A DNA stretch of 64,000 nt from Lachnospiraceae bacterium (lineage in GTDB: Bacteria; Bacillota; Clostridia; Lachnospirales; Lachnospiraceae). The stretch covers positions 1 to 64,000 of the forward strand of contig JAQYDI010000031.1 in the NCBI GenBank assembly GCA_028724245.1. The letters run 5' to 3'. Made by a program: the position numbers and the translations under genes. The notes under the pieces are model-generated. The model made no database searches, was not told where the DNA came from, and was given only the letters and a program-made list of their open reading frames with translations. Of this stretch, positions 3,505 to 57,960 are shown piece by piece; the stretch's first letter is position 1; each line of letters opens with the position of its first letter.

Positions 3505-4742
3505 TTAACAAGCTTTTTGAAATACGGATCAGCTCCATATCTCCCTTCTAAATACTGCTTACTGTAATTTTCATCGTTTCGCGGTTTATTTCCGCCTTCC
3601 TTTCGAAAATCAACAAGTGAATATAAAACCGACTCCTCATATGCATTTATTGCTGAGAACCAAATTTCATCCCGTCTAAACACATCTTTGCTCATTGTTG
3701 TAAGATCGTGCGATGTAAATAACAGCTGTGCTGTTCCTTTGTTAATTCTCTTATCTGTAAACAGTTCAATAATCCTGCGAAGCAGCAACGGATGTAATTT
3801 TGCATCCAATTCATCAATCAAAAATAGACAATTCTGCTCTATTCCTTTTAATAAGATCGGGATGATACTAATTATTTTTTTTGTTCCCCCTGATTCTTCA
3901 GAAAGACATAATTTTGTCGTTTCTCCAGATGAAAGCAGATGCGTTGTATAGATTTCCTTTATCGATCCATCATCATCATATACAACTTCTATATCACAAA
4001 TATCAATCCCCATTGATTGCAGCACAGAACATACCCGTTTTTTATCTTTTTCAATCTGCTTAACAAAAATTTTTCTATCCATATTAGGTTTATCATAATT
4101 CAAAACCTTAATCTGCATAAAAAATTTAAATACGCGATCTATTATATCTATATTTTTAAACATTGCTATATAAGAAAGAATCGGTAAACTCTCATTGATG
4201 TTTTCCATATCTACACTTTCTAATTTATCACATAAAAATACGCCTTCTTCATCCCTTTCAAATATCACCTCAATGCAACCGTCTTTCTCCATATAGAGAT
4301 TTTCAACAATAATATCCTCTTTCTTTAACTCAAGTTCATATCGGTATTTGTAGTCATCAATTTGGAATAGAATATTAAATTTCGTCGGTTTATCAGCGTA
4401 TTCTTTATCCCATTTGTAATATGAAGAAGTAATATGGATATCTGCCAATCCATCCTTTAATTGCTCAATAGGGGCATCCCCCAATTCTTCATTCTTTTTC
4501 TTCATAAATGCCAACTGAAGCAACGGCTGCATAACAATTTGCCGCAATTCCTCAATTGCCATAATCACACTGCTTTTTCCGCCACCATTTGGTCCATATA
4601 TTGCACACACTGGTAAAAGTGCATCCTCACCTTTAGTTCTTATCAGAGTATCCTCAAATTCACTAATCGGTTTAGCAAGAAAACCAATAGTTGCTTCATT
4701 TCTGTACGAACGATAATTTTCAAAAGAGAACTCATATATCAT
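3486..4742 (-). CDS. AAA (RloA/AAA_15-like) ATP-binding protein
   Basis: MIYEFSFENYRSYRNEATIGFLA, Walker A YGPNGGGKSSVI, ESGGTKKIISIIPILL signature-like region, LFLIDELDAKLHP (Walker B), TSHD. Confidence 0.85.
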   Translation of the reverse strand: MIYEFSFENYRSYRNEATIGFLAKPISEFEDTLIRTKGEDALLPVCAIYGPNGGGKSSVIMAIEELRQIVMQPLLQLAFMKKKNEELGDAPIEQLKDGLADIHITSSYYKWDKEYADKPTKFNILFQIDDYKYRYELELKKEDIIVENLYMEKDGCIEVIFERDEEGVFLCDKLESVDMENINESLPILSYIAMFKNIDIIDRVFKFFMQIKVLNYDKPNMDRKIFVKQIEKDKKRVCSVLQSMGIDICDIEVVYDDDGSIKEIYTTHLLSSGETTKLCLSEESGGTKKIISIIPILLKGIEQNCLFLIDELDAKLHPLLLRRIIELFTDKRINKGTAQLLFTSHDLTTMSKDVFRRDEIWFSAINAYEESVLYSLVDFRKEGGNKPRNDENYSKQYLEGRYGADPYFKKLVNWEVPE

Positions 4743-5183
4743 TTATATAACCTCCACGAATTTTTTCTCATATAATATATATCACAAAGTTCTAAAGTCA
4801 TCAATATACCGTGAGAAAAAATCTCACACAGGAACGAATTCACTTCTCAGATATTGCATGTCATGCTCGTCAACATTCTCCGGAATCCATATTTGAATAT
4901 TTTAATCCGCAAATGTTTGAATAGTTTTTACCCCTCTATTCCCTGAGGACTTTCTTAACCTGATTACTTCTCACTCTTATATTATACATGTTTATATTTT
5001 ATCGTTTTCCCAATTACATGCATTGATTTATCTGTAAATACTGATCCAACTGAAGGTTTGACTGATGGTATAAATAACAAAAATCCAAAACAGAGTCCAA
5101 AATATTCACTGAGGAACTGAATACTTCGAACTCTGGTCAGGATTTATATAGCTGGCAACTGATTTTGGGAATAGTAAATGATA

Positions 5184-45345: not shown

Positions 45346-46221
45346 TTAAAAAATGTCTCCTTGACAACAGCTTTTGGAAATTTTGCGAAAATCCTTCTTC
45401 CATTTGCCGAAAAGTTCTTCCGCTGCCGTATCTGCCGCATTATTCTGTCCGCTTTTTTCATCCATCTGCTGAAATTCCGAAACAGTTTCTCCATAATCTG
45501 CTGAAGCGGCCTCTCTCTCGATCTTATCTTTTTTTCGTTTAAAATTCTCCTGCCAGCTTTTCATGGTAATGCCATGGATACCGGAGAAAATATTCTCATC
45601 GCAGACCTGTACGGGACTGATACATGACAATTCATATAATTCCTGAAGGATCGATTCCTGATGAAGATAACCGTATGCCTTTGACAGAGCATCTCCGGCC
45701 GCTTTCCATTCGAATGCCGTCATATAGATTCTTCCCAGACTCCGGTAAATCATTCCCGTTTCTTCATCATTCAGCCTGATTTTTCTCTGCAGGTCTGCCT
45801 GCAGAAGCTGCTGATAAAGTTCAGCTGCCCGGTCATATTCTTTCTGTTTCAGAAAAAGATCTGCCTGAAGCTTTTTCTTTCCGGAATCCGGCAATTTCTG
45901 GAAGACTGTTACTTTTTCTTTCATTTCTTTCCGCTCGGTTTCATCCATATCCCCTATGGAAAGGGCCAGTTCCCCTGCAAGAACCACAGGGCTGACCTGA
46001 GATACTCTGGAAATCACCAGTTCTGCCAGATCGCGGCGGTTCATCTCTTCCTGAAGAAAACGTATCAGCCCGGTATCAAAAAAATCATCCTCGATCAGAT
46101 ACAGAAAATGCTGCAGAAAATAACTCAGTTCTTCCAGTGAATACAGATGGATTCCGGCAGCCGCTGCATACAGGGGCTGTTTTACTTTCCCGGTATCCAG
46201 ACATCTGACAACTCTTCCCAT
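45346..46221 (-). CDS. TPR-like protein of unknown function
   Basis: Helical repeats (KEYDRAAELYQQLLQ, MIYRSLGRIYMTAFEWKAAGDALSKAYGY); 18 bp after the Hsp70-like gene. Confidence 0.6.
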   Translation of the reverse strand: MGRVVRCLDTGKVKQPLYAAAAGIHLYSLEELSYFLQHFLYLIEDDFFDTGLIRFLQEEMNRRDLAELVISRVSQVSPVVLAGELALSIGDMDETERKEMKEKVTVFQKLPDSGKKKLQADLFLKQKEYDRAAELYQQLLQADLQRKIRLNDEETGMIYRSLGRIYMTAFEWKAAGDALSKAYGYLHQESILQELYELSCISPVQVCDENIFSGIHGITMKSWQENFKRKKDKIEREAASADYGETVSEFQQMDEKSGQNNAADTAAEELFGKWKKDFRKISKSCCQGDIF

Positions 46222-46239
46222 ACAAAGTACCTCCTGACA

Positions 46240-47505
46240 CTAAACATGATAGTGCTGTTCCACCACCCGACCGGTTGATGGATAAATCTCTCCAAATCCC
46301 AGATCCTCCACGCGCACAACCATGGAATCCATATCGGAAAATGCAACGGAAAGCCTGATTTTTGTTCGTTCCCTTCCGTCACACATAAAAGCCGTAAGAT
46401 CCAGAGGCAGACTGCGGCTTTCCTGAGCTCCTGCATTTCTCACAAACAGATTCAGACTGCTCTGGCCGATCAGATTCAGGTCAACGGATGTTCTGGCTTC
46501 ATAACAGCTTGTCCCGGCCCGGACAAGAACCATCTGTTCATTTTCTCCATGTTCATCAACAAAGATGCTGACAGTTGTACTGACTCTTCCTTCACAGATG
46601 CAGCGGTAAGGAAAGTTCCGGTGATCATCCGCAATATGATATGCCGCAAAAGCAGCTCCCATTCCATATAAAGCCTCCACCTGATAAACTTTTCTGCTTT
46701 TCTGTGATGAAATACTCAAAATAAACTGTCTGGCCCATGATACATCTTCAAAACCTTCTCCGCAAAGCATGACACTGCTGATGATCTTACCTGACATCTT
46801 TTTCTCTGCCAGACCTGCAAACCATCTGTCCGCCGCATTTTGGGCCTCTTCCTCATATCTGAGCTGAAGAACAGAAGGTGCACCTTTGATCTCTTCCATA
46901 TGAGACTGAGCAGTAACCGGCCGCAGTCCCTTGATCTGACTGACTTCGTAGCAGTACAGTCCCTTCTGACCGTAATCAAACAGCAGGCTGACATTGCTCC
47001 ATATTTCACGTTTCTGGCTCATCAGATAATACATAAAACATTCCTGCCTGTTCAGAATATGAATATTCATCGGGTCTATTCCCAGTCCGCTGCAGAGCCT
47101 GCTGATTTTCTCAGCATCCCTGATTTCTGCCTTCTCCATGCAGACTGCAAGGCTTTCAATCTGTTCTGTACCGGAGCGCCTCATCGCCTCTTTCAGTATA
47201 TAATTCATATACTCCCGGAACATATCCTCATCTGTATAACATGATCCATTTATCTTCAGACACTGACCGCTCTGAAACAGCGTGATCAGGCGGTTCAATA
47301 CGATGCATCCTTCTTTTCCCTGCTTTTTTTCCGCTTCTGCGCCCGCATACCATCTGTTATGTCCGGTATCAAAACACAGATAGGACGGAATCCTGTATTC
47401 ACCTGTCTGATCCTGCAGTTTCTGGACTTTCCTGTCAGCAGGATTCAGCCATGCCATACTGCATCCGGAATCATCCAGTTCAATCCCAAGATATAATCTT
47501 TCCAT
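46240..47505 (-). CDS. Divergent Hsp70/actin-fold-like protein (possibly DUF5716 family)
   Basis: LYLGIELDDSGCSMAW (phosphate-1-like), VSLLFDYGQKGLYCYEVSQIKG (phosphate-2-like), SSVMLCGEGFEDVSWARQFI (adenosine-motif-like). Confidence 0.65.
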   Translation of the reverse strand: MERLYLGIELDDSGCSMAWLNPADRKVQKLQDQTGEYRIPSYLCFDTGHNRWYAGAEAEKKQGKEGCIVLNRLITLFQSGQCLKINGSCYTDEDMFREYMNYILKEAMRRSGTEQIESLAVCMEKAEIRDAEKISRLCSGLGIDPMNIHILNRQECFMYYLMSQKREIWSNVSLLFDYGQKGLYCYEVSQIKGLRPVTAQSHMEEIKGAPSVLQLRYEEEAQNAADRWFAGLAEKKMSGKIISSVMLCGEGFEDVSWARQFILSISSQKSRKVYQVEALYGMGAAFAAYHIADDHRNFPYRCICEGRVSTTVSIFVDEHGENEQMVLVRAGTSCYEARTSVDLNLIGQSSLNLFVRNAGAQESRSLPLDLTAFMCDGRERTKIRLSVAFSDMDSMVVRVEDLGFGEIYPSTGRVVEQHYHV

Positions 47506-47586
47506 TTTCTCCTATCAACTCTCCAAATAGATTTCTCACTATACTAACAAATCACTGCTGCAGAACAGCGGTACCGTCATCTCCCG

Positions 47587-50500
47587 TTAATGAACAGCTT
47601 CATTCTTTCCAACAGAGTCAATCATCCTCAGCATCATATCATAATTTCTCATCTGTTCTGACACCGGTTCGCCATTATGCAGACGAACCGCAATCTCCTG
47701 CAGCCTCCGGTATCGGTCATTCCCTGAAGCAGATTGCGGCATATAAGTCCAGTCTTCCATAATCTGCCACTCTGTCACCTGTTTCCCGCAATGAAAACGG
47801 TAACATACTTTTTCTCCGGCAAACACAACGATCTCTGCGGAATACAGACAGTCATATACCTGACGGGTCTGCACCCGATACCTGGTCTGCGGTTCTTCAT
47901 CAACGTAATATTCTGCCCACAAATCTTCCTGATTTTTGGAAACCCTTTCAAAAAGATCCTCATGAAATGCTCCGGCAGCTGAAAGATTCACCTGAATAAC
48001 AGGAACGGCTGCCATGCCGTACTGCGCCGCCGCCCTCTGCACAAAATCCAGATACAGTCCCATATCCAGCATATTACCGCACATCTTTTCCAGAACAATA
48101 CGCTCTGTATCATGATCCATCCCAACCTCCTGATCATACTTCAGACAGGCCAGCTGACATGGTACTGTAAGGCTGGAAATATTGCCTGAATGGATCACCA
48201 TACTCTGCAGTGCAGCCATAACATCAGCTTCCATATCACAGCTTTCACATAAATACGCATGACAGATCCGGTTGACTGCCGCCTGAATCAACAGCTTTGC
48301 CGGTTCCCGGTTGACAACAGTAACAAACAGTTCCTGAATCATATCCATATCCGCTCCAGCCTCCATCAACAGGCGCAGAAGCAGCTTCTGTTCCAGTTCC
48401 TCACAGGTAAGTTTTTTTTCCAGACAGGCTCTGTACAGACTTACAAGCAGTTCTTTTTTTCCCTGACAGTTCCGTGACAGATACTGCAACAGAATATCCT
48501 CCAGAATTCCTTTATAAAACAGATAGATCAGGAGATTTATCAATTCCGTGTTAGTTTCATTCTCCGGATACTGTACAAGCGCTTCCGCCAGTTCCAGAAG
48601 CAGATTGTCATCTACAGAATCCTGCGACAGACCTGACAAAAATCCGGCTGCTTCCGTATAATACTTTTTACGAATCAGAATTTCCGTAAAAACTGCCATC
48701 TGCTCTCTGTCCATCAGTTCCAAATATCTGCATACTGCCTGAATATCCGAATTCTCAAAACAGCTTCCTTTTTTATCAGATAAAACAAAATCAAGCAGAC
48801 CTTTCCGGAAATCATCATCCAGAGAATCATCTTTCAGATACTGCATGCAAAGCCGGAAATCACACCGGTCATATTCCTTCTCTACAATATGGGCATGTGT
48901 CTGCAGCAGTAACAGCATCTCATCATCCGGGCAGAGTTTTTCACAGCATTCCATCAACTCCCTGTCCTGCATCAGGGGATAGACTTTCAGGCTGACCCCG
49001 TTGATTCTTATTCCCTGACGATTCTGTAAATGAAATCTGCCGTTTCCGCCAGGAACACACAGACAGGTTTTTCCATTCATAAACACCCCTGTCTGCGGTT
49101 CTTTAAAAATTCCGCTTTCAAAAACAACCTGATATCCATCCGGAACCTGTGCTTTTACCTGTACCAGATACAGCATGGGAACCAGCGCACAGGCCAGTTC
49201 TTCATCAATATTATCCGGTGAAATGATTTCTCCTGCAAGAAGAGCCAGATCTTCACTCCAACAGCTGTGCATGATCTGTCTTTTCACAAATTCCTGCATC
49301 CCGTAAGTATAATGATCATAAATCTGAGAATCTTCCGTATAAAACTGCAGTACATTCAGCAAAAGCCTCGTATAAATCTGCGGATTCACAAAATCATCCA
49401 ATGCAAAATACAGCAGAACCTCACGATTTACAGGTTTTTCATATCCTGAAGGAAGGGTATACATGTAATAATCAAACAGTCTGGCTATTTTCATCCCCTC
49501 TTCCACTGCTTTTTCATAGTATGGAAATGCAGTGCTGCCTTTCTGATTTGACCGGATCATTACAGTACATAACGTTGACAGCATATCTCTGGACGGATAC
49601 TTATCATACAGTTTTTTATACATGCTGCATATATACGGTGTATACAGCTCCGGTCTGCACAGAGATGCACATTCCGCTGTTTTTGCAGAAATGATATGAT
49701 TTTTTATGCCTGCATACAGGCAGTGTCCTGCCCATCCGTCAATTCCGGTATCCAGAAATCGTTCCACCTGAGGATTTTCCAGAAGAAAAGCGCCGTAAAC
49801 AAACAGATATGGACTCGCGTTGCCGCGCTGATACAAACGTCCCAATTCTTCCCACAAACCAACCGGTTCTGTATCTGCCAGCTGCAGGCAATCACCGCAC
49901 AGAAGAAGAACCAGATCCGCATCTTTCGGTTCCCTGTCCATGGCATTCTGAATATAACTTCCCAGCTGCTGCTTTCTGACTGCCGCTTCCCGCATCTGAC
50001 GCTGATACAGTGCGATTCCATACTGCAGGTTCAAAAGCATGCAGTACTCGATACAATGTTCTTTTTTAGCTGCAGTAACCACATTGCGGATTCTGCTTTC
50101 CAGTTTTGAAGCATAGGATACATTGCCGTCAGCCAGTGCGGCAAAAGCTTCATATATTTTATACCGGACACAATCCGGCCTCAGACGGGCAAGAAGCTGA
50201 ATTCCGGAAGTAATCTGTTCCAGAAGCTCCTGCTGCTTTTCCTGCTGCCTGTCCTGATGTAAAAGGAGCAGTCTTTCCAGGTTCAATTTTGTGATACGAA
50301 GTCTTTCCGTTTTTTCTCTGCGGATATTTTCCGGAAGTTTTTTCCGTGCCGTTTTATGGCTTTCTTCGCACTGCACAGTCTGAGTTCTGCCGCTGATTTC
50401 ATCACCAGAACCCTTTTTCTTTCCTGTTGACCTGAAATGCAGCGGGATTACATATTCACCGCCGTTCCAGCACAACAGTATCCCATCTGTGCTCCATTCT

Positions 50501-50775
50501 TCCTGAACCGGAACCCGTCCCGGTACCAATTCATAATGTAATGTCGTATTCCCCTGAAAACTGCTTTCCTTCATAATCAAGGCCGGATGAAGCGACTGTA
50601 CTGTGCCGGTCAGTTCTGCCTCATTCCTGCTGTAAACAGCAATGGAACCGCTGTGTCTTCCGGTTCCGTCCCAGACAATCTCTTCTTTGTCCACACTGAT
50701 AACCGCCTGTGCATATACATGCTCCAGATTCCCTGCGGCCATCTGCTCCAGCACTGTTTTAAAAGCAACTGTCAT
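47587..50775 (-). CDS. Large 1062-aa helical-repeat protein of unknown function (possibly DUF5717 family)
   Basis: Single ORF overlapping the rarA stop (ATGA); N-terminal beta-like segment then a long alpha-helical, Leu/Cys-rich body. Confidence 0.7.
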   Translation of the reverse strand: MTVAFKTVLEQMAAGNLEHVYAQAVISVDKEEIVWDGTGRHSGSIAVYSRNEAELTGTVQSLHPALIMKESSFQGNTTLHYELVPGRVPVQEEWSTDGILLCWNGGEYVIPLHFRSTGKKKGSGDEISGRTQTVQCEESHKTARKKLPENIRREKTERLRITKLNLERLLLLHQDRQQEKQQELLEQITSGIQLLARLRPDCVRYKIYEAFAALADGNVSYASKLESRIRNVVTAAKKEHCIEYCMLLNLQYGIALYQRQMREAAVRKQQLGSYIQNAMDREPKDADLVLLLCGDCLQLADTEPVGLWEELGRLYQRGNASPYLFVYGAFLLENPQVERFLDTGIDGWAGHCLYAGIKNHIISAKTAECASLCRPELYTPYICSMYKKLYDKYPSRDMLSTLCTVMIRSNQKGSTAFPYYEKAVEEGMKIARLFDYYMYTLPSGYEKPVNREVLLYFALDDFVNPQIYTRLLLNVLQFYTEDSQIYDHYTYGMQEFVKRQIMHSCWSEDLALLAGEIISPDNIDEELACALVPMLYLVQVKAQVPDGYQVVFESGIFKEPQTGVFMNGKTCLCVPGGNGRFHLQNRQGIRINGVSLKVYPLMQDRELMECCEKLCPDDEMLLLLQTHAHIVEKEYDRCDFRLCMQYLKDDSLDDDFRKGLLDFVLSDKKGSCFENSDIQAVCRYLELMDREQMAVFTEILIRKKYYTEAAGFLSGLSQDSVDDNLLLELAEALVQYPENETNTELINLLIYLFYKGILEDILLQYLSRNCQGKKELLVSLYRACLEKKLTCEELEQKLLLRLLMEAGADMDMIQELFVTVVNREPAKLLIQAAVNRICHAYLCESCDMEADVMAALQSMVIHSGNISSLTVPCQLACLKYDQEVGMDHDTERIVLEKMCGNMLDMGLYLDFVQRAAAQYGMAAVPVIQVNLSAAGAFHEDLFERVSKNQEDLWAEYYVDEEPQTRYRVQTRQVYDCLYSAEIVVFAGEKVCYRFHCGKQVTEWQIMEDWTYMPQSASGNDRYRRLQEIAVRLHNGEPVSEQMRNYDMMLRMIDSVGKNEAVH

Positions 50776-52172: not shown

Positions 52173-52985
52173 TTATTCAATCATTATCTCATCCACAGTA
52201 CAGAAACGGTATCCCCTCTCCAGAAAGATATCCGCCACTTTCAAAGCCGCTTCCACAGATGTTTCATATACATCATGAAGAAGAATGATGGAGCCGTCTT
52301 CCGTCTGCTGCAGAATGCTTTTTACTACAGCATCCGTATTCTGTACTTTCCAGTCATAGGGATCCACATCCCATAATACTGCTTCCAGGCTTGTTTCTTC
52401 CTGCAGCTTTTCATTCCAGCTTCCAAAAGGCGGCCTGATGTAACGGGCACTGATGCCCGCGGCCTGATAGATCACTTCCTGTGTTTTTCTGATCTCATCA
52501 AGCGCATCATCTTCGCTGCAGGCGGTCAGCTGTACATGAGAGTACGTGTGGTTTCCCACCTGATTCCCGTCTTCCACCATACGCTGGATCAATTCCGGAT
52601 ATTCTCCGGCACTTTTACCGATAACAAAAAAAGTGGCCCGGATTCCTCTGTCCTTCAGACCATCCAGAAGTTTTTCCGTCCAGACCGGATGCGGACCGTC
52701 GTCAAAGGTCAGTGCAACTTCCACCTGATCAGCTGCTTCCGGATCCGGATAATCAACCTCCACTACACTCTTCTGCCCCGTTTCAACAGCCGATGATCCC
52801 CCGTTTACGATCCATCCTGACAGGATGATCACCAGCACCAGCGCAAAAGCCGGTACCGGAATCCATCCTGAAAAAGCAGGCTTTCCATCTTTTTTCAAAA
52901 ATATTCCCATCAATCTGTTCTTAACAAAGAATATGTATGGACAGCTCCATGGTATACCTTTTATTCTTCGGTCAGCATTCTGCAA
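52173..52985 (-). CDS. Polysaccharide deacetylase family protein
   Basis: VALTFDDGPHPVWTEKLLDGL, GNHTYSHVQL, RPPFGSWNEKL, ILLHDV. A start at 52910 is also possible. Confidence 0.92.
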   Translation of the reverse strand: MQNADRRIKGIPWSCPYIFFVKNRLMGIFLKKDGKPAFSGWIPVPAFALVLVIILSGWIVNGGSSAVETGQKSVVEVDYPDPEAADQVEVALTFDDGPHPVWTEKLLDGLKDRGIRATFFVIGKSAGEYPELIQRMVEDGNQVGNHTYSHVQLTACSEDDALDEIRKTQEVIYQAAGISARYIRPPFGSWNEKLQEETSLEAVLWDVDPYDWKVQNTDAVVKSILQQTEDGSIILLHDVYETSVEAALKVADIFLERGYRFCTVDEIMIE

Positions 52986-53346
52986 TCACTGCATATTTGC
53001 GGCAGCTGACCTGTGCCTCTCCTCCGCCGGGCAATGTAAAATATGATATCACTTCAATATCCATAATACCTTTTTCCAGATTCACTTCGTACGATGTGAT
53101 ATCAAATTCCGCATCCGCCCCAAGTATCAGAAACAGTTCTCCCAGAAAATCAGCATACAGTTCCCGGTCATCTGCAATGGAATATTCTCTGCTGATTCCT
53201 GCGGCAGTCAGACTGTGGCGCATGGACATCTCCATGGCCATCTCCAGTTCCTCCCGATGCAGCTGTCTGCTCTCCATACAATACACACATCGAATCCCCC
53301 CAAGCAGAATACAGATAAATATAAATGCCCACGCAATCTGCCTCAT
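52972..53346 (-). CDS. Small protein with N-terminal TM, pseudopilin-like architecture
   Basis: MRQIAWAFIFICILLGGIRCVYCMESRQLHREELEMAMEM...; ATGA overlap with the upstream ORF (53343). Confidence 0.55.
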   Translation of the reverse strand: MRQIAWAFIFICILLGGIRCVYCMESRQLHREELEMAMEMSMRHSLTAAGISREYSIADDRELYADFLGELFLILGADAEFDITSYEVNLEKGIMDIEVISYFTLPGGGEAQVSCRKYAVIAEC

Positions 53347-54638
53347 ACCAGTCCTTTCCTGATCAGTTCCCGGTTCAGCAGCGTACCTGCAAAACCGCAT
53401 TTCTCCACGAGTTTCCTGATCTGTTCAATCTGTTCTCTTCCATACCGGATCTTTCCGTCTGTTCCTCCGTCTTTTTCATCTTCCTGCGGCGTCCTGAACT
53501 CCACCCGGTACCTTTTCTCTTTCCAGACTGCATAAAGTTCTGTATCTTTTTTCAGAACCAGGCTGCTCCCGGATTCATAAAGCTTCAGTTTCCGCACCTC
53601 TTCTTCTCCTGCGTCAGCAGACAGAACTTCCATTTTTTCCCGGCTCCAGCCCAGAAAAATATACTGATCACTGTTCATCCCCGGCAATTCATATGTCTGA
53701 TCTGACCACAGCGCATACAAAGATATCACCCCGTTATGCTCATCTGTGAGATTTTTCACCTCTGCGCCGCCACTGTATGTTACCGGTCCTTTTTTTGTCA
53801 GCCCCCAGCCCCGGAAACTGCTTTTCAGCATCGTATGGACCGGCTGCAGTTTTTCCCCTTTCCAGAGAACTTCCCCCGGATCCAGAGTTACGGTAATGAT
53901 CTTTGAAAATCTGCAGGTTTCCAGCTTTCCGGCTTTTCCGTAAATAAATTTCTGCTTCTCCATGGTTCCCAAAGCCGCCGGATCATTTTTATGATAAGAT
54001 ATATACCATACAGAAGGCTGAAAAACCGTCAGCTGAATACCATAATAATTTTTCAGTGCTTCTCTGGTACTTTGTGACCATGATGCCGCTTTCAGGATCT
54101 GACCCAGATTCCGGTACACCGTACCCGTAAAATCTGCCTGACCGTTATCCAGTTCCGTTATCATCCCCTGGTCTTTTCCATTCATAACAAGGCAAAGATA
54201 AAAATCAATCTGAAAACGGATCCTGTGATTATACATCATACGCCCGAAGTCCGTACCGGGGTATCTGCTCTGAAGCCGCTTGAAAATCCGGTCATAGGAA
54301 ATCTGGTACAGACTGTAATAATATCCGTTTTTCTTCACATAGCTGATTCTCCTGCAGCTTCCGGAACCGGATCCGTCATCCAGAGCAATATCAATCACAT
54401 ATTGTTTTCCTCCATCTATCTGCATTGTAAATTTCTGTCCGGAAACTCCATACCGGATTCCCTGCGGATCTCCCGCTTTTCCCCGGGATGAATAATAAAA
54501 AGCCCCATCAGCAAAAATAATCTGACCACTCCCATAAGTATCATAAAATGCATCTGCATCCCTGAAAGTCCGTCCGGAAGCAGAAGCAGATATATGCGGC
54601 ATCAGGAACAGCAATATGCCCATTCCCAGTAAAATCAT
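53343..54638 (-). CDS. Secreted/surface protein with InlB-B-repeat-like C-terminal segments
   Basis: N-term signal; FRGWGLTKKGPVTYSGGAEVKNL..ISLYALW, YIFLGWSREK...LKKDTELYAVWKEK. Confidence 0.7.
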   Translation of the reverse strand: MILLGMGILLFLMPHISASASGRTFRDADAFYDTYGSGQIIFADGAFYYSSRGKAGDPQGIRYGVSGQKFTMQIDGGKQYVIDIALDDGSGSGSCRRISYVKKNGYYYSLYQISYDRIFKRLQSRYPGTDFGRMMYNHRIRFQIDFYLCLVMNGKDQGMITELDNGQADFTGTVYRNLGQILKAASWSQSTREALKNYYGIQLTVFQPSVWYISYHKNDPAALGTMEKQKFIYGKAGKLETCRFSKIITVTLDPGEVLWKGEKLQPVHTMLKSSFRGWGLTKKGPVTYSGGAEVKNLTDEHNGVISLYALWSDQTYELPGMNSDQYIFLGWSREKMEVLSADAGEEEVRKLKLYESGSSLVLKKDTELYAVWKEKRYRVEFRTPQEDEKDGGTDGKIRYGREQIEQIRKLVEKCGFAGTLLNRELIRKGLV

Positions 54639-54646
54639 TCTATCTG

Positions 54647-54982
54647 CTATCTGGCGTATCCCTGAATCACTCCTTCCTGCATACTGTCTTCTCCCATACC
54701 CGGAACTTTCAGCTGATAATACAGACTGAGCAAAATACAGTGCTCTCCCTGAGGAACATCAATCTCTGTGCATTCCAGGCGATATCCTCCGGAAGCGGCC
54801 TCTTCTCTGCACTTTCTGATAACTTTTTCATCCATCTGGCTGCACTCAATCTGATCTGCCAGCTTGTGGAAACAGGTCCGTGCCTGCAGAATATACAGAT
54901 TGGAAGAAATCATCTGCGCCAGCATCATGCAGCCCACACACAAAAGAATAGTCTGAATCATCGTCTCAATTCCGATCTTCAT
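54647..54982 (-). CDS. TadE/TadF-like small protein
   Basis: MKIGIETMIQTILLCVGCMMLAQMISSNLYILQARTCFHKLADQIE: N-term TM with pilin-like continuation; embedded in the Tad-like locus. Confidence 0.55.
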   Translation of the reverse strand: MKIGIETMIQTILLCVGCMMLAQMISSNLYILQARTCFHKLADQIECSQMDEKVIRKCREEAASGGYRLECTEIDVPQGEHCILLSLYYQLKVPGMGEDSMQEGVIQGYAR

Positions 54983-55263
54983 AACTGTCCCTCCGAATTC
55001 CTGCAGAAATCATCCGGATCATCCCATATTACCGCAGTTTCCATACCTCTTCTGTAAATCCCGTCATTATATGGCTGCCCGCCGATTCCTGCTTTTTCCT
55101 GTACTGTCATATAACGCATATACTGCCGGCTCAGAGTCATATCGACCATCCTGTCTGCCATATAAACACTTCCTGCTGCCAGTATCAGACACGCTGCAAA
55201 CAATGCCAGCACCGTTATCCCCCACTCCTTTCCAAATCTGCTCATTCTTTCTCTTGTTTTCAT
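54979..55263 (-). CDS. TadE-like small protein
   Basis: MKTRERMSRFGKEWGITVLALFAACLILAAGSVYMADRMVD; ATGA overlaps on both sides; trimmed from ORF start 55338. Confidence 0.5.
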   Translation of the reverse strand: MKTRERMSRFGKEWGITVLALFAACLILAAGSVYMADRMVDMTLSRQYMRYMTVQEKAGIGGQPYNDGIYRRGMETAVIWDDPDDFCRNSEGQL

Positions 55264-55367
55264 AATGCTCCTGCCAAACTGTAAAACTTTTCCATTACAC
55301 AAAACAGAATTCTGCCGATTGCAATCAAAATCAGGCATCCTCCCAGTTCTTCCATCATAACTTTCAT
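55260..55367 (-). CDS. 35-aa membrane microprotein in the Tad-like locus
   Basis: MKVMMEELGGCLILIAIGRILFCVMEKFYSLAGAL; starts in an ATGA overlap with the TadC-like stop. Confidence 0.45.
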   Translation of the reverse strand: MKVMMEELGGCLILIAIGRILFCVMEKFYSLAGAL

Positions 55368-56656
55368 AACCGATACATTTCTCCCAGAAATGAGAACAGC
55401 ATCAGGCTCAGGTTCACAACCAGAACGATGACTGAAACCAGCATGGGAAGCGCAGCCATCATACCCATCCATGACAGAACCGAATCCGTTTTCATTTCAA
55501 ATGCAGCATCCGCAAGGTGCCTGTTCTGATCCAGCATGGCATAAATCTGTTCCTGAATCTCATCTTTCCCCATGTCATTGATTGCATAAAGCTGAAGCAT
55601 AACTGCATGGATTTCAGGAAGATTAAATCCCTTCAGAAACTCCAGATAAGGCTGAATGGAAACCGGATCCTCCTGCTGCATCTTTATCAGCTGATACAAA
55701 GGGCGCACCAGCACCTCCGGCGCATCATCCAGAGAATGAGAAACTGCAGTCTGAACATTCTCCGTCTGAAGGCGCAGTATCATATCAAACATCCATTCAG
55801 GAAAATGTATATTGATTTCCTGTTCCAGCCTGTGCACAGTCTTCCAATACCGTATGCCATGCACGGGAGACTCAAGATTCCTGTACAGCTTCTCCATCTG
55901 CCTGCTCTCACATCCGGCTTTGCGGCAATCTGACGGCAATCCTGCTTTCTCCAGACCGGTTCCTGCCGACATGGTAGAAAATCCGATGTACAGCATCTGA
56001 AACACAACCAGCCCCGTACCTGTACATACCTGATATGCCATCCTGTCTGCAACTCCTGATGCTGCCGGCATCATGCGTACAACTGCCGCACAGATCAGAC
56101 AGGACAGAATGATCGCCAGCACCAGACGGCTCTGAATACCCTTCTTACGTCCGACAAAAGTCTTCTGATTCTTTTTCCAGTCACGCAGCTGGTGCAGAAG
56201 AAGCTCCAGCGCCAGTGCACAATCACCGCCCTGCTCCTCAACACGGATCAGAAATACATGAAGCACATGCATAAGATGATGACCGTACTGTGCTTCTACA
56301 TGTGAAAAAGCCTGCCGAAACAGATTATCCTCTTCAAAATCACCTTCCAGTTTTCCAAGTGCTTCCGTAATACGCTTTTTCAGATTGCCTTCTGTAACAT
56401 ATGAAACATCACGCAAAGCCGCAGGAATCTTATGGTGCCGCCGGAAACTGTATATCAGCTGCTCCATATAAAAAGCACTGTCTTCCAGCTTTCTTTTCTG
56501 CTCTTCTTCCTTATTTCTGCGCCGGATCAAAAGCGGAACCATACCGGCAGAACAGACTCCGACAATCATCACAACAGGAAGCTTCAAACCACACAAATAT
56601 GCAGTCACTATAAAGAAAAGCGGCATCCTCCCTGTTAAAATATAATTATTTCTCAT
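55364..56656 (-). CDS. TadB/TadC-like type II secretion F-domain membrane protein
   Basis: N-terminal TMs, AFYMEQLIYSFRRHHKIPAALRDVS, GGDCALALELLLHQLRDWK, C-terminal TM MAALPMLVSVIVLVVNLSLMLFS; next to the CpaF-like ATPase. Confidence 0.65.
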   Translation of the reverse strand: MRNNYILTGRMPLFFIVTAYLCGLKLPVVMIVGVCSAGMVPLLIRRRNKEEEQKRKLEDSAFYMEQLIYSFRRHHKIPAALRDVSYVTEGNLKKRITEALGKLEGDFEEDNLFRQAFSHVEAQYGHHLMHVLHVFLIRVEEQGGDCALALELLLHQLRDWKKNQKTFVGRKKGIQSRLVLAIILSCLICAAVVRMMPAASGVADRMAYQVCTGTGLVVFQMLYIGFSTMSAGTGLEKAGLPSDCRKAGCESRQMEKLYRNLESPVHGIRYWKTVHRLEQEINIHFPEWMFDMILRLQTENVQTAVSHSLDDAPEVLVRPLYQLIKMQQEDPVSIQPYLEFLKGFNLPEIHAVMLQLYAINDMGKDEIQEQIYAMLDQNRHLADAAFEMKTDSVLSWMGMMAALPMLVSVIVLVVNLSLMLFSFLGEMYRL

Positions 56657-57673
56657 CTATCCTGCCTCGCAAAACGGATCTTCGATTCCCGCAAATGCAA
56701 ACTTCCGAAGCATCGTTTCCGGCAGCCGCGGCCTCGACATCCGCCCGTCTTCATAAAATACCGTTACGGTATTCACTCCCTGACATCGGTCAAAAAGAGC
56801 TGCCTGTTCTATTCTTCTGCAGATTCCCTTTCCGGGCACATTGTAGCAGCCGATCAGAACGCCCAGATTCAGAAAAGAATATACATCATCCGTTACATCC
56901 TTTTTCAGCATACTGCAGATACGATCCGGTATCTTTCTGACATCATCCGTATGGATCGTAGTCATGCAGCTGACCCCCGTAGACATGGATTCCAGCAGAT
57001 ACTCTGCTTCCAGCGATCTGGCCTCGGAAAGAATCAGCCATCCGGGAAGCTGACGCATGGAAGCCTTAATTGCCTTTCCATAAGAGAAAGTATCTCCCAC
57101 TTTAATCTCGATCCCATCCTTATCCGGATTAATGGCACGATAACGAATCTCCAGATTATCTTCAATGGTGATTACTTTTTTATTCGCGGGAATATATGCT
57201 GTCATCGCTTTCAGATACTCTGTCTTTCCTGCCCCCGGAAGACCTGCAGCCACCAGAGTAAGCCCTGCACGCACCGCATTGGCCATAAAAATGTCCAGTT
57301 CCGCTGTACAGTAACCCGTGTCCAGCATACGTCTGCGATCCAGTCTCCGTATCCCCGGTGTCTTGCGTATGGAAATACTTCTGCCGGTATTCGTTACAGA
57401 CTCATGAATGATGGAAATGCGCAGTTCATCCGTCTCAGCCTCAAGCAGCGGTTCATACTGATTAAAGGAACGATTCATCAGATTGGCAATCCTCATGCTG
57501 AACCGGTTCAGAAAGCCGGTATCTGCCTGAAAAGAAGCTACACGATATCTGCCTCTGGTCAGATGATCCACCCAAAGATCTTTCCCATTGTAATTGATAT
57601 CTGTAATCTGCCCATCCTTTATAAACGGAAACAGTTCCCCGAATACTTCATCCTCCAGATACAACTTTGCCAA
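56657..57673 (-). CDS. CpaF/TadA-like secretion ATPase
   Basis: ISIRKTPG, VAAGLPGAGKTEYLKAMTAYIP (Walker A), ITIEDNLEIRY, GWLILSEARSLEAEYLLESMSTGVSCMTTIHTDD. Confidence 0.85.
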   Translation of the reverse strand: MAKLYLEDEVFGELFPFIKDGQITDINYNGKDLWVDHLTRGRYRVASFQADTGFLNRFSMRIANLMNRSFNQYEPLLEAETDELRISIIHESVTNTGRSISIRKTPGIRRLDRRRMLDTGYCTAELDIFMANAVRAGLTLVAAGLPGAGKTEYLKAMTAYIPANKKVITIEDNLEIRYRAINPDKDGIEIKVGDTFSYGKAIKASMRQLPGWLILSEARSLEAEYLLESMSTGVSCMTTIHTDDVRKIPDRICSMLKKDVTDDVYSFLNLGVLIGCYNVPGKGICRRIEQAALFDRCQGVNTVTVFYEDGRMSRPRLPETMLRKFAFAGIEDPFCEAG

Positions 57674-57683
57674 ACTTTCCCCC

Positions 57684-57833
57684 CTACGCCAGCGCTGAGC
57701 TTGTAAAATCGCTGATTGTCTTCAGTACAGCTGACTGAATGGCTTTCCCTACCGGCTCCGACATGGCCACCAGAATCATAATGCAGGCAATTACAAAAAT
57801 CGCAATCCCATATTCCTCAAGAAACGCTTTCAT
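57684..57833 (-). CDS. Flp-like small hydrophobic pilin candidate (49 aa)
   Basis: MKAFLEEYGIAIFVIACIMILVAMSEPVGKAIQSAVLKTISDFTSSALA; GGAAAGGAGGACAATG start; directly upstream of the TadA-like gene. Confidence 0.6.
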   Translation of the reverse strand: MKAFLEEYGIAIFVIACIMILVAMSEPVGKAIQSAVLKTISDFTSSALA

Positions 57834-57896: not shown

Positions 57897-57960
57897 TGAC
57901 ACATGTGATATATAAATCCGTTACGAATTTTACAATAACACATGTGTCAATTCTTGTCAA
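57897..57960 (-). promoter_or_regulatory. Predicted promoter with operator-like 11-bp inverted repeat, upstream of the Tad-like operon
   Basis: TGACACATGTG (57897-57907) and its exact reverse complement CACATGTGTCA (57939-57949); minus -35 TTGACA at 57955-57960, -10-like TATTGT at 57932-57937. Confidence 0.5.

Follow-up and report, generated by a model that had tools for sequence, protein, structure and literature searches.

Tad-type systems are said systematically to have two platform genes (PMC6668835), and conjugative elements of Gram-positive bacteria apparently make no pili (PMC8092201, PMC8014075, PMC11730352). The plasmid pLS20 depends on a thioester adhesin to mate efficiently, particularly in liquid (PMC8092201). 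Here we analyse an operon of eight open reading frames (ORFs) in a 64,000-nt stretch of a Lachnospiraceae genome (GenBank assembly GCA_028724245.1, contig JAQYDI010000031.1, positions 1 to 64,000), the whole of which is called the window below. Judged by sequence, modules of pLS20-type plasmids are its nearest known kin, and the operon probably encodes a compact monoderm Tad-like (type IVc-like) filament that would display or export the neighbouring adhesin. The locus type is conserved, yet apparently undescribed; a search of the literature on leaderless pilins, on Lachnospiraceae/Roseburia Tad pili and on pLS20 Tad pili gave nothing relevant, preprints and most subscription papers lying outside that search.

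The eight ORFs lie nose to tail on the minus strand from 57833 to 52972 and encode 49, 338, 430, 35, 94, 111, 431 and 124 amino acids (aa) in this order (Table 1). Spacing is tight, with an ATGA overlap at 55367/55364; the 94-aa ORF runs into the 111-aa ORF by 4 bases, and the 431-aa ORF into the 124-aa ORF by as many. All the ORFs and near-zero overlaps reported in the initial annotation, which had described a reduced Tad/Flp-like locus of a monoderm, were thus confirmed, and its view of a Tad-like, compact, monoderm system was supported. The start of the last ORF is most likely at 53346, the listed 142-aa form being a longer in-frame reading.

Table 1. Coordinates of the operon's genes and of its putative control elements, with the evidence for each
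Feature	Position	Strand	Evidence
49-aa pilin, MKAFLEEYG then hydrophobic helix	57684..57833	-	GGAGG ribosome site before ATG; 86% identity in nearest relative L065; family motif
CpaF/TadA-like ATPase, 338 aa	56657..57673	-	PF00437; alignment; PDB kin; tree
Platform protein F, 430 aa, probably a TadB-like and a TadC-like half joined	55364..56656	-	T2SSF; AlphaFold2 (AF2) model; match to plasmid F1/F2
35-aa short pilin, MKVMMEELGG then hydrophobic helix	55260..55367	-	Class recurs in relatives; L065 homologue 57% identical
94-aa membrane protein, probable longer minor pilin	54979..55263	-	N-terminus ends KEWG before helix; L065 counterpart 24% identical
111-aa core membrane protein E2 (TadE position)	54647..54982	-	Homologue in 95/100 loci; pLS20-type 120-aa protein best outside match, 4e-5
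431-aa secreted surface protein	53343..54638	-	Residues 28-205 predicted all-beta; N-domain common to about ten relatives
124-aa core membrane protein C142	52972..53346	-	Homologue in 85/100 loci; pN/pS 0.34
Sigma-70-type promoter, TTGACA, 17 nt, TATTGT, with TG before second hexamer (extended -10)	57932..57960	-	10/12 matches
Two palindromic ACACATGTG boxes 39 bp apart, putative operator pair	57899..57946	.	One within promoter spacer, one downstream

The ATPase matched PF00437 (T2SSE) with 64.3 bits, above the cut-off, and carries a Walker A motif GLPGAGKT, a Walker B-like SEAR and a His box TIHTDD. Its profile recovered CpaF structures from PDB at 3e-29, the best match being 2oap (2.5e-33), which is labelled a type II secretion system protein and which we take to be of archaeal origin. 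The assignment to Tad families made in the initial annotation was upheld in part by profile searches: PF00437 recognised the ATPase, whereas the TadA model TIGR03819 stayed far below its cut-off (79.6 bits against 373, the VirB11 model scoring higher with 91 bits) and platform protein F fell just under the T2SSF cut-off (23.2 against 25.2 bits; E 7.4e-5). Pfam gave no match for any of the six other products and recognised no VirB4, VirB6, VirB8 or VirD4 partners among the operon products, which comprise an F-type platform and pilins instead. The ATPase profile scored pLS20-type plasmid ATPases at 230 and 212 bits and the genome's own CpaF at 132. In a tree, canonical CpaF split from the window-type and pLS20-type ATPases with a support of 100, and the window-type ATPases were separate from both, again with a support of 100. 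The window ATPase forms its own clade, and the locus is a separate subfamily, not a copy of canonical Tad.

In a tblastn search of plasmids the top hit was to a plasmid of Paraclostridium bifermentans (31% over 84%, E 5e-35), with pLS20-like B. subtilis plasmids next, and a related ATPase is encoded by 149 plasmids of Bacillus, Listeria, Enterococcus and others. The conjugation operons of these plasmids run in the order thioester-domain protein, 126-129-aa protein, ATPase, F1, F2, 120-aa protein and 47-aa hydrophobic ORFs; on pLS20 itself (NC_015148.1, 8808-13334; locus L163) this Tad-like set lies beside the thioester adhesin, and the ATPase is named tadA in the record. The two modules share a CpaF-type ATPase from the same side of the tree. 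The plasmid partners seem to correspond as well: platform proteins F1 and F2 to the halves of F, a 120-aa protein to E2 (hit by the chromosomal E2 profile at 4e-5) and probably the 126-129-aa protein to C142 (a weak 0.004 for the C142 profile on the 126-aa form), together with 47-aa pilin-like ORFs and a secreted adhesin alongside. The plasmid 47-aa ORFs have no motif in common with the window-family pilins; one pLS20-type plasmid (L158) carries two identical ones. In contrast, the window locus is chromosomal, lacks transfer genes, holds its platform in one chain and more pilins, has another surface protein, and encodes an ATPase about 65 aa shorter.

The initial annotation had taken a second F-domain protein to be missing, a view that was not supported: in all likelihood both halves are contained in the one platform protein. 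Modelled by AF2 with 47 relatives, F was all-helical, with a predicted local distance difference test (pLDDT) score of 91.7, and showed two similar helix bundles, each between long helices. In profile comparison its N half resembled canonical TadB (E 1.4e-6); its two halves gave no significant match to each other, and Foldseek found no PDB match to the model at E<=0.001. The plasmid protein F1 (about 270 aa) aligned with F positions 8-254 at 1.7e-10, and F2 (about 240 aa), the product of the next plasmid gene, aligned with the C half, between positions 254 and 384, at 7e-5 and 3e-4. F is most likely F1 and F2 joined, a TadB-like and a TadC-like half in one chain, because it aligns collinearly with these two adjacent plasmid proteins; no platform component would then be missing. 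Model and position together suggest that the C half is an F domain, and a single F gene was present in 97 of 100 loci.

With canonical Tad/Flp systems (type IVc) the locus shares a T2SSF-type platform, very short helical pilins and a compact operon, and probably the ATPase family. It differs in having no recognised TadZ, RcpC, secretin or peptidase of its own, one platform gene instead of tadB plus tadC, a pilin N-terminal segment of 9 residues and a major pilin without Glu at +5. Reading the window's ORF list revealed no gene for secretin, TadZ, RcpC or peptidase, and for TadZ the Pfam scan of the eight products was likewise negative. Archaeal type IV pili also have one platform protein with two F-type domains, but there TadC corresponds to the N half and TadB to the C half (PMC6668835), whereas the N half of the window's F resembles TadB. 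The MSH pilus likewise has no prepilin peptidase at its locus (PMC6668835), although it is a diderm system derived from type IVa pili (T4aP).

A complete canonical Tad locus does exist in the same genome, on contig C25 (3018-13241; locus L042), with a TadZ-like protein, CpaF, TadB, TadC, a 59-aa Flp (MKNLRKIGKHLCSDDG/VGVVE..., i.e. CSDDG/VGVVE, the slash marking the leader end), TadE-like proteins and an A24 prepilin peptidase. Beside its ordinary Tad locus this gut bacterium thus carries a second, much smaller Tad-like locus. The initial annotation had allowed that a full Tad set might lie elsewhere and the window copy be degenerate; the full set was found, yet the locus in the window has not decayed and is no duplicate of that set. 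The ATPase of L065, the nearest relative, is 82% identical, and both gene order and flanking genes are the same there. Ratios of nonsynonymous to synonymous differences (pN/pS) against L065 were 0.14 (pilin), 0.15 (ATPase), 0.34 (124-aa protein), 0.36 (F and likewise the 111-aa protein) and 0.43 (surface protein), with 0.10-0.27 for the flanking genes, synonymous sites being near saturation in this comparison; the 94-aa protein alone evolves fast. The operon is under purifying selection and is real, intact and conserved. It is not a decayed Tad operon or relic, and its recurrence in about 90 distinct relatives is more than chance.

Among 200 Lachnospiraceae genomes, one per genus, 27 encode a window-type ATPase (39-54% identity, E<1e-40; the genome under study counted, and one match partial), and the matches listed for the other genomes were ordinary CpaF-like ATPases of about 25-32% identity. 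One of these genomes, G103, has two window-type ATPase loci, on contigs C11 and C20. No window-type ATPase outside the genome under study was found in a phylum-wide sample of 399 genomes, where the other three matches reached 142-154 bits; the family is therefore narrow. In a scan of GTDB genomes relatives were encoded on at least 539 stretches. Of these the 80 best were retrieved; most belonged to records with labels such as Lachnospiraceae, Eubacterium or Roseburia, and some to Erysipelotrichaceae including Traorella. In three Erysipelotrichaceae carriers the window-type protein was the sole CpaF-like ATPase at E<=1e-10. In all, 100 loci were compared, about ten of them the same locus twice, which leaves about 90 distinct ones. 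The usual order in relatives is pilin, ATPase, F, then E2 and short pilins in variable order, and C142.

The pilins are short ORFs, up to five per locus, with the motif M-x-x-[IFL]-[FLIM]-[EKQ]-[EQ]-[YFH]-G and a hydrophobic helix at once thereafter. They share a short, nearly fixed N-terminus with EEYG just before the helix, and 220 of 237 ORFs have the aromatic as residue 8, even though the search pattern left its position variable. One locus (L056, about 4461-4857) has two adjacent genes for an identical 56-aa pilin. Class III prepilins have G at -1 and E at +5. Of the acidic residues at the hydrophobic helix positions 11-22, 16 of 17 occupied position 14 (G9+5), and they came from no fewer than six lineages or paralogue classes. 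This is the spacing of a cleaved prepilin, which makes a trans-acting peptidase the most likely explanation. We thus consider it quite likely that the pilins are cut by a prepilin peptidase encoded in trans.

Such enzymes are available. Besides that of the canonical locus, the genome encodes a stand-alone A24 prepilin peptidase of 154 aa (contig C49, 5431-5895, minus strand; locus L043), which by reading is flanked by genes for a GntR-type regulator and for an NYN-domain-like protein and near which no pilin genes were noticed; it is a possible processing enzyme for the window system. The suggestion of the initial annotation that parts are encoded in trans thus fits the peptidase, which is most probably trans-encoded, all peptidase matches in the genome being on other contigs. 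The loci of the MSH pilus, all without a prepilin peptidase, may borrow one from another system (PMC6668835).

It is also conceivable, though unlikely, that the same machine polymerises pilins that are never cut, translation starting at a mature-like N-terminus with no prepilin peptidase involved. The spacing between the start codon and the aromatic-Gly pair, which hardly varies, would suit this, as would strong ribosome sites right before the pilin start, a residue +1 that is often K, E or P, the lack of an A24 peptidase near the locus in the genome under study or in 25 mapped carriers, the pLS20-type 47-aa ORFs (MLDQNADRMYWVIGAV...), which have no Gly/Ala directly before the helix, and a likeness of EYG to the proteobacterial Flp motif E5-Y6-G7. 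On the other hand, apart from the acids at G9+5, the FL.EE.G of the pilins is similar to real leaders of the same genomes: at 13 canonical loci (the genome under study and carriers), Flp prepilins had leaders of 13-24 residues, most ending EE.G/xGVVE. The short-pilin filter, run on 400 kb at these 13 loci with both strands counted, returned no short-class ORF. The 94-aa protein and its L065 relative have basic N-termini of 15-17 residues ending WG. Carriers without prepilin peptidase, sought as proof of independence, were absent, the A24 peptidase being found in all 88 records searched. The reading of the pilins as leaderless was weakened by the G9+5 acids, by their resemblance to canonical leaders and by the longer N-termini found in the class of the 94-aa protein, and is kept as a rival. 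Its wider form, in which the whole branch of gut Lachnospiraceae loci and pLS20-type modules works with leaderless, uncut pilins and no prepilin peptidase, we hold to be slightly less likely still.

Several observations weigh against the compact filament with joined platform and cleaved pilins. Comparison of the F C half with canonical TadC stayed at noise level, and the likeness of this half to plasmid F2 is weak, as seen from the E-values given above. Glu at +5 was found in none of 52 upstream pilins and in 13 of 174 downstream ORFs. At +1, 22 of these 52 have a charged or polar residue or a proline (the last in nine), which is unusual for a prepilin cut; here the 52 are the upstream pilins. 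Since 149 of 150 members of the family have an A24 peptidase, its presence is uninformative, and peptidase co-occurrence therefore decides nothing. Some loci have no large surface protein adjoining.

The small proteins downstream had been called TadE-like; their architecture agrees (position, a single N-terminal helix), but the 94-, 111- and 124-aa proteins have no Pfam match. Against the TadE-like proteins of the same genome the E2 profile reached about 1-5 bits, and against the pLS20-type plasmid protein 14 bits. For the 431-aa protein AF2 reached reasonable confidence for residues 28-205 alone, and its model had no informative match in PDB. The initial annotation had seen in it a possible tip adhesin and an InlB-repeat surface protein, the latter being weakly supported: some relatives carry Flg_new/InlB repeats, but the window protein has no Pfam match. 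Many loci encode a secreted protein of about 560-1700 aa at the operon end, and the terminal proteins scanned in relatives had BspA-type leucine-rich repeats, ChW, beta-helix or Flg_new/InlB-type repeats.

In the mechanism that we propose, the CpaF-type ATPase, for which homology was shown, would drive one platform protein with a TadB-like and a TadC-like half, a fusion suggested by profile alignment. Order and conservation are consistent with a platform that polymerises several very short helical pilins, among which the 49-aa protein would be the major subunit and those of 35 and 94 aa minor or priming ones. Their short class III leader, ending ...EEYG, would be removed by the prepilin peptidase encoded elsewhere, and E2 and C142 may act as core accessory or minor-pilin-like proteins. 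The filament would display, or help to bring out, the Sec-secreted surface protein from the operon end for contact or adhesion, a role that we propose because the surface module differs between species as an adhesin would.

Alternatively, the locus could encode no surface pilus but a pseudopilus-type secretion device, in which a short piston exports the adjoining surface protein. Such a piston would fit pilins that are very small and lack globular heads, the presence of several minor pilins at each locus, and the Sec-type secreted protein that many loci encode at the end of the operon. However, export from a monoderm requires no step across a second membrane, the terminal proteins seem to bear Sec signals of their own, several loci have no terminal surface-protein gene and Flp-type pilins are normally this small; thus a piston seems doubtful. 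A remnant of an integrated conjugative element, that is, a pLS20-like mating-contact module left on the chromosome, is suggested by the kinship of the ATPase, F1 plus F2, E2 and perhaps C142 to the plasmid operons, but is very improbable, as no relaxase or VirD4/VirB4-like gene was recognised by reading among the window's ORFs and as the locus keeps the same housekeeping neighbours in L065 and is conserved over many genera as a clade of its own.

A surface filament, if that is what the operon encodes, would define a compact family that is common in the Lachnospiraceae of the gut and distinct from the ordinary Tad pili found there. The locus is an exception to the published generalisation of two platform genes in Tad-type systems (PMC6668835). 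It also ties a chromosomal pilus-like operon to genes of Gram-positive conjugation operons, where no pili are said to form, and a putative Tad-like pilus of pLS20 is now directly testable in Bacillus subtilis. The plasmid relatives and the question of pilin processing raise the interest of the locus.

The promoter of the operon precedes the 49-aa pilin gene, and L065 has the same promoter, with TAGTAT, at the same place. The pair of ACACATGTG boxes is the sole occurrence in the 3.63 Mb genome; L065 keeps both boxes as CACATGTG (one base changed) at the same spacing, and they were seen in none of 61 other loci examined. Operon expression would probably be switched through this operator pair over the promoter. 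By reading, the flanks encode a nucleotidyltransferase, a polysaccharide deacetylase and a RarA-like ATPase. Elsewhere in the window (45346-50775, minus strand) genes for a 1062-aa protein, a 421-aa protein of Hsp70/actin-like appearance and a repeat-like 291-aa protein are grouped.

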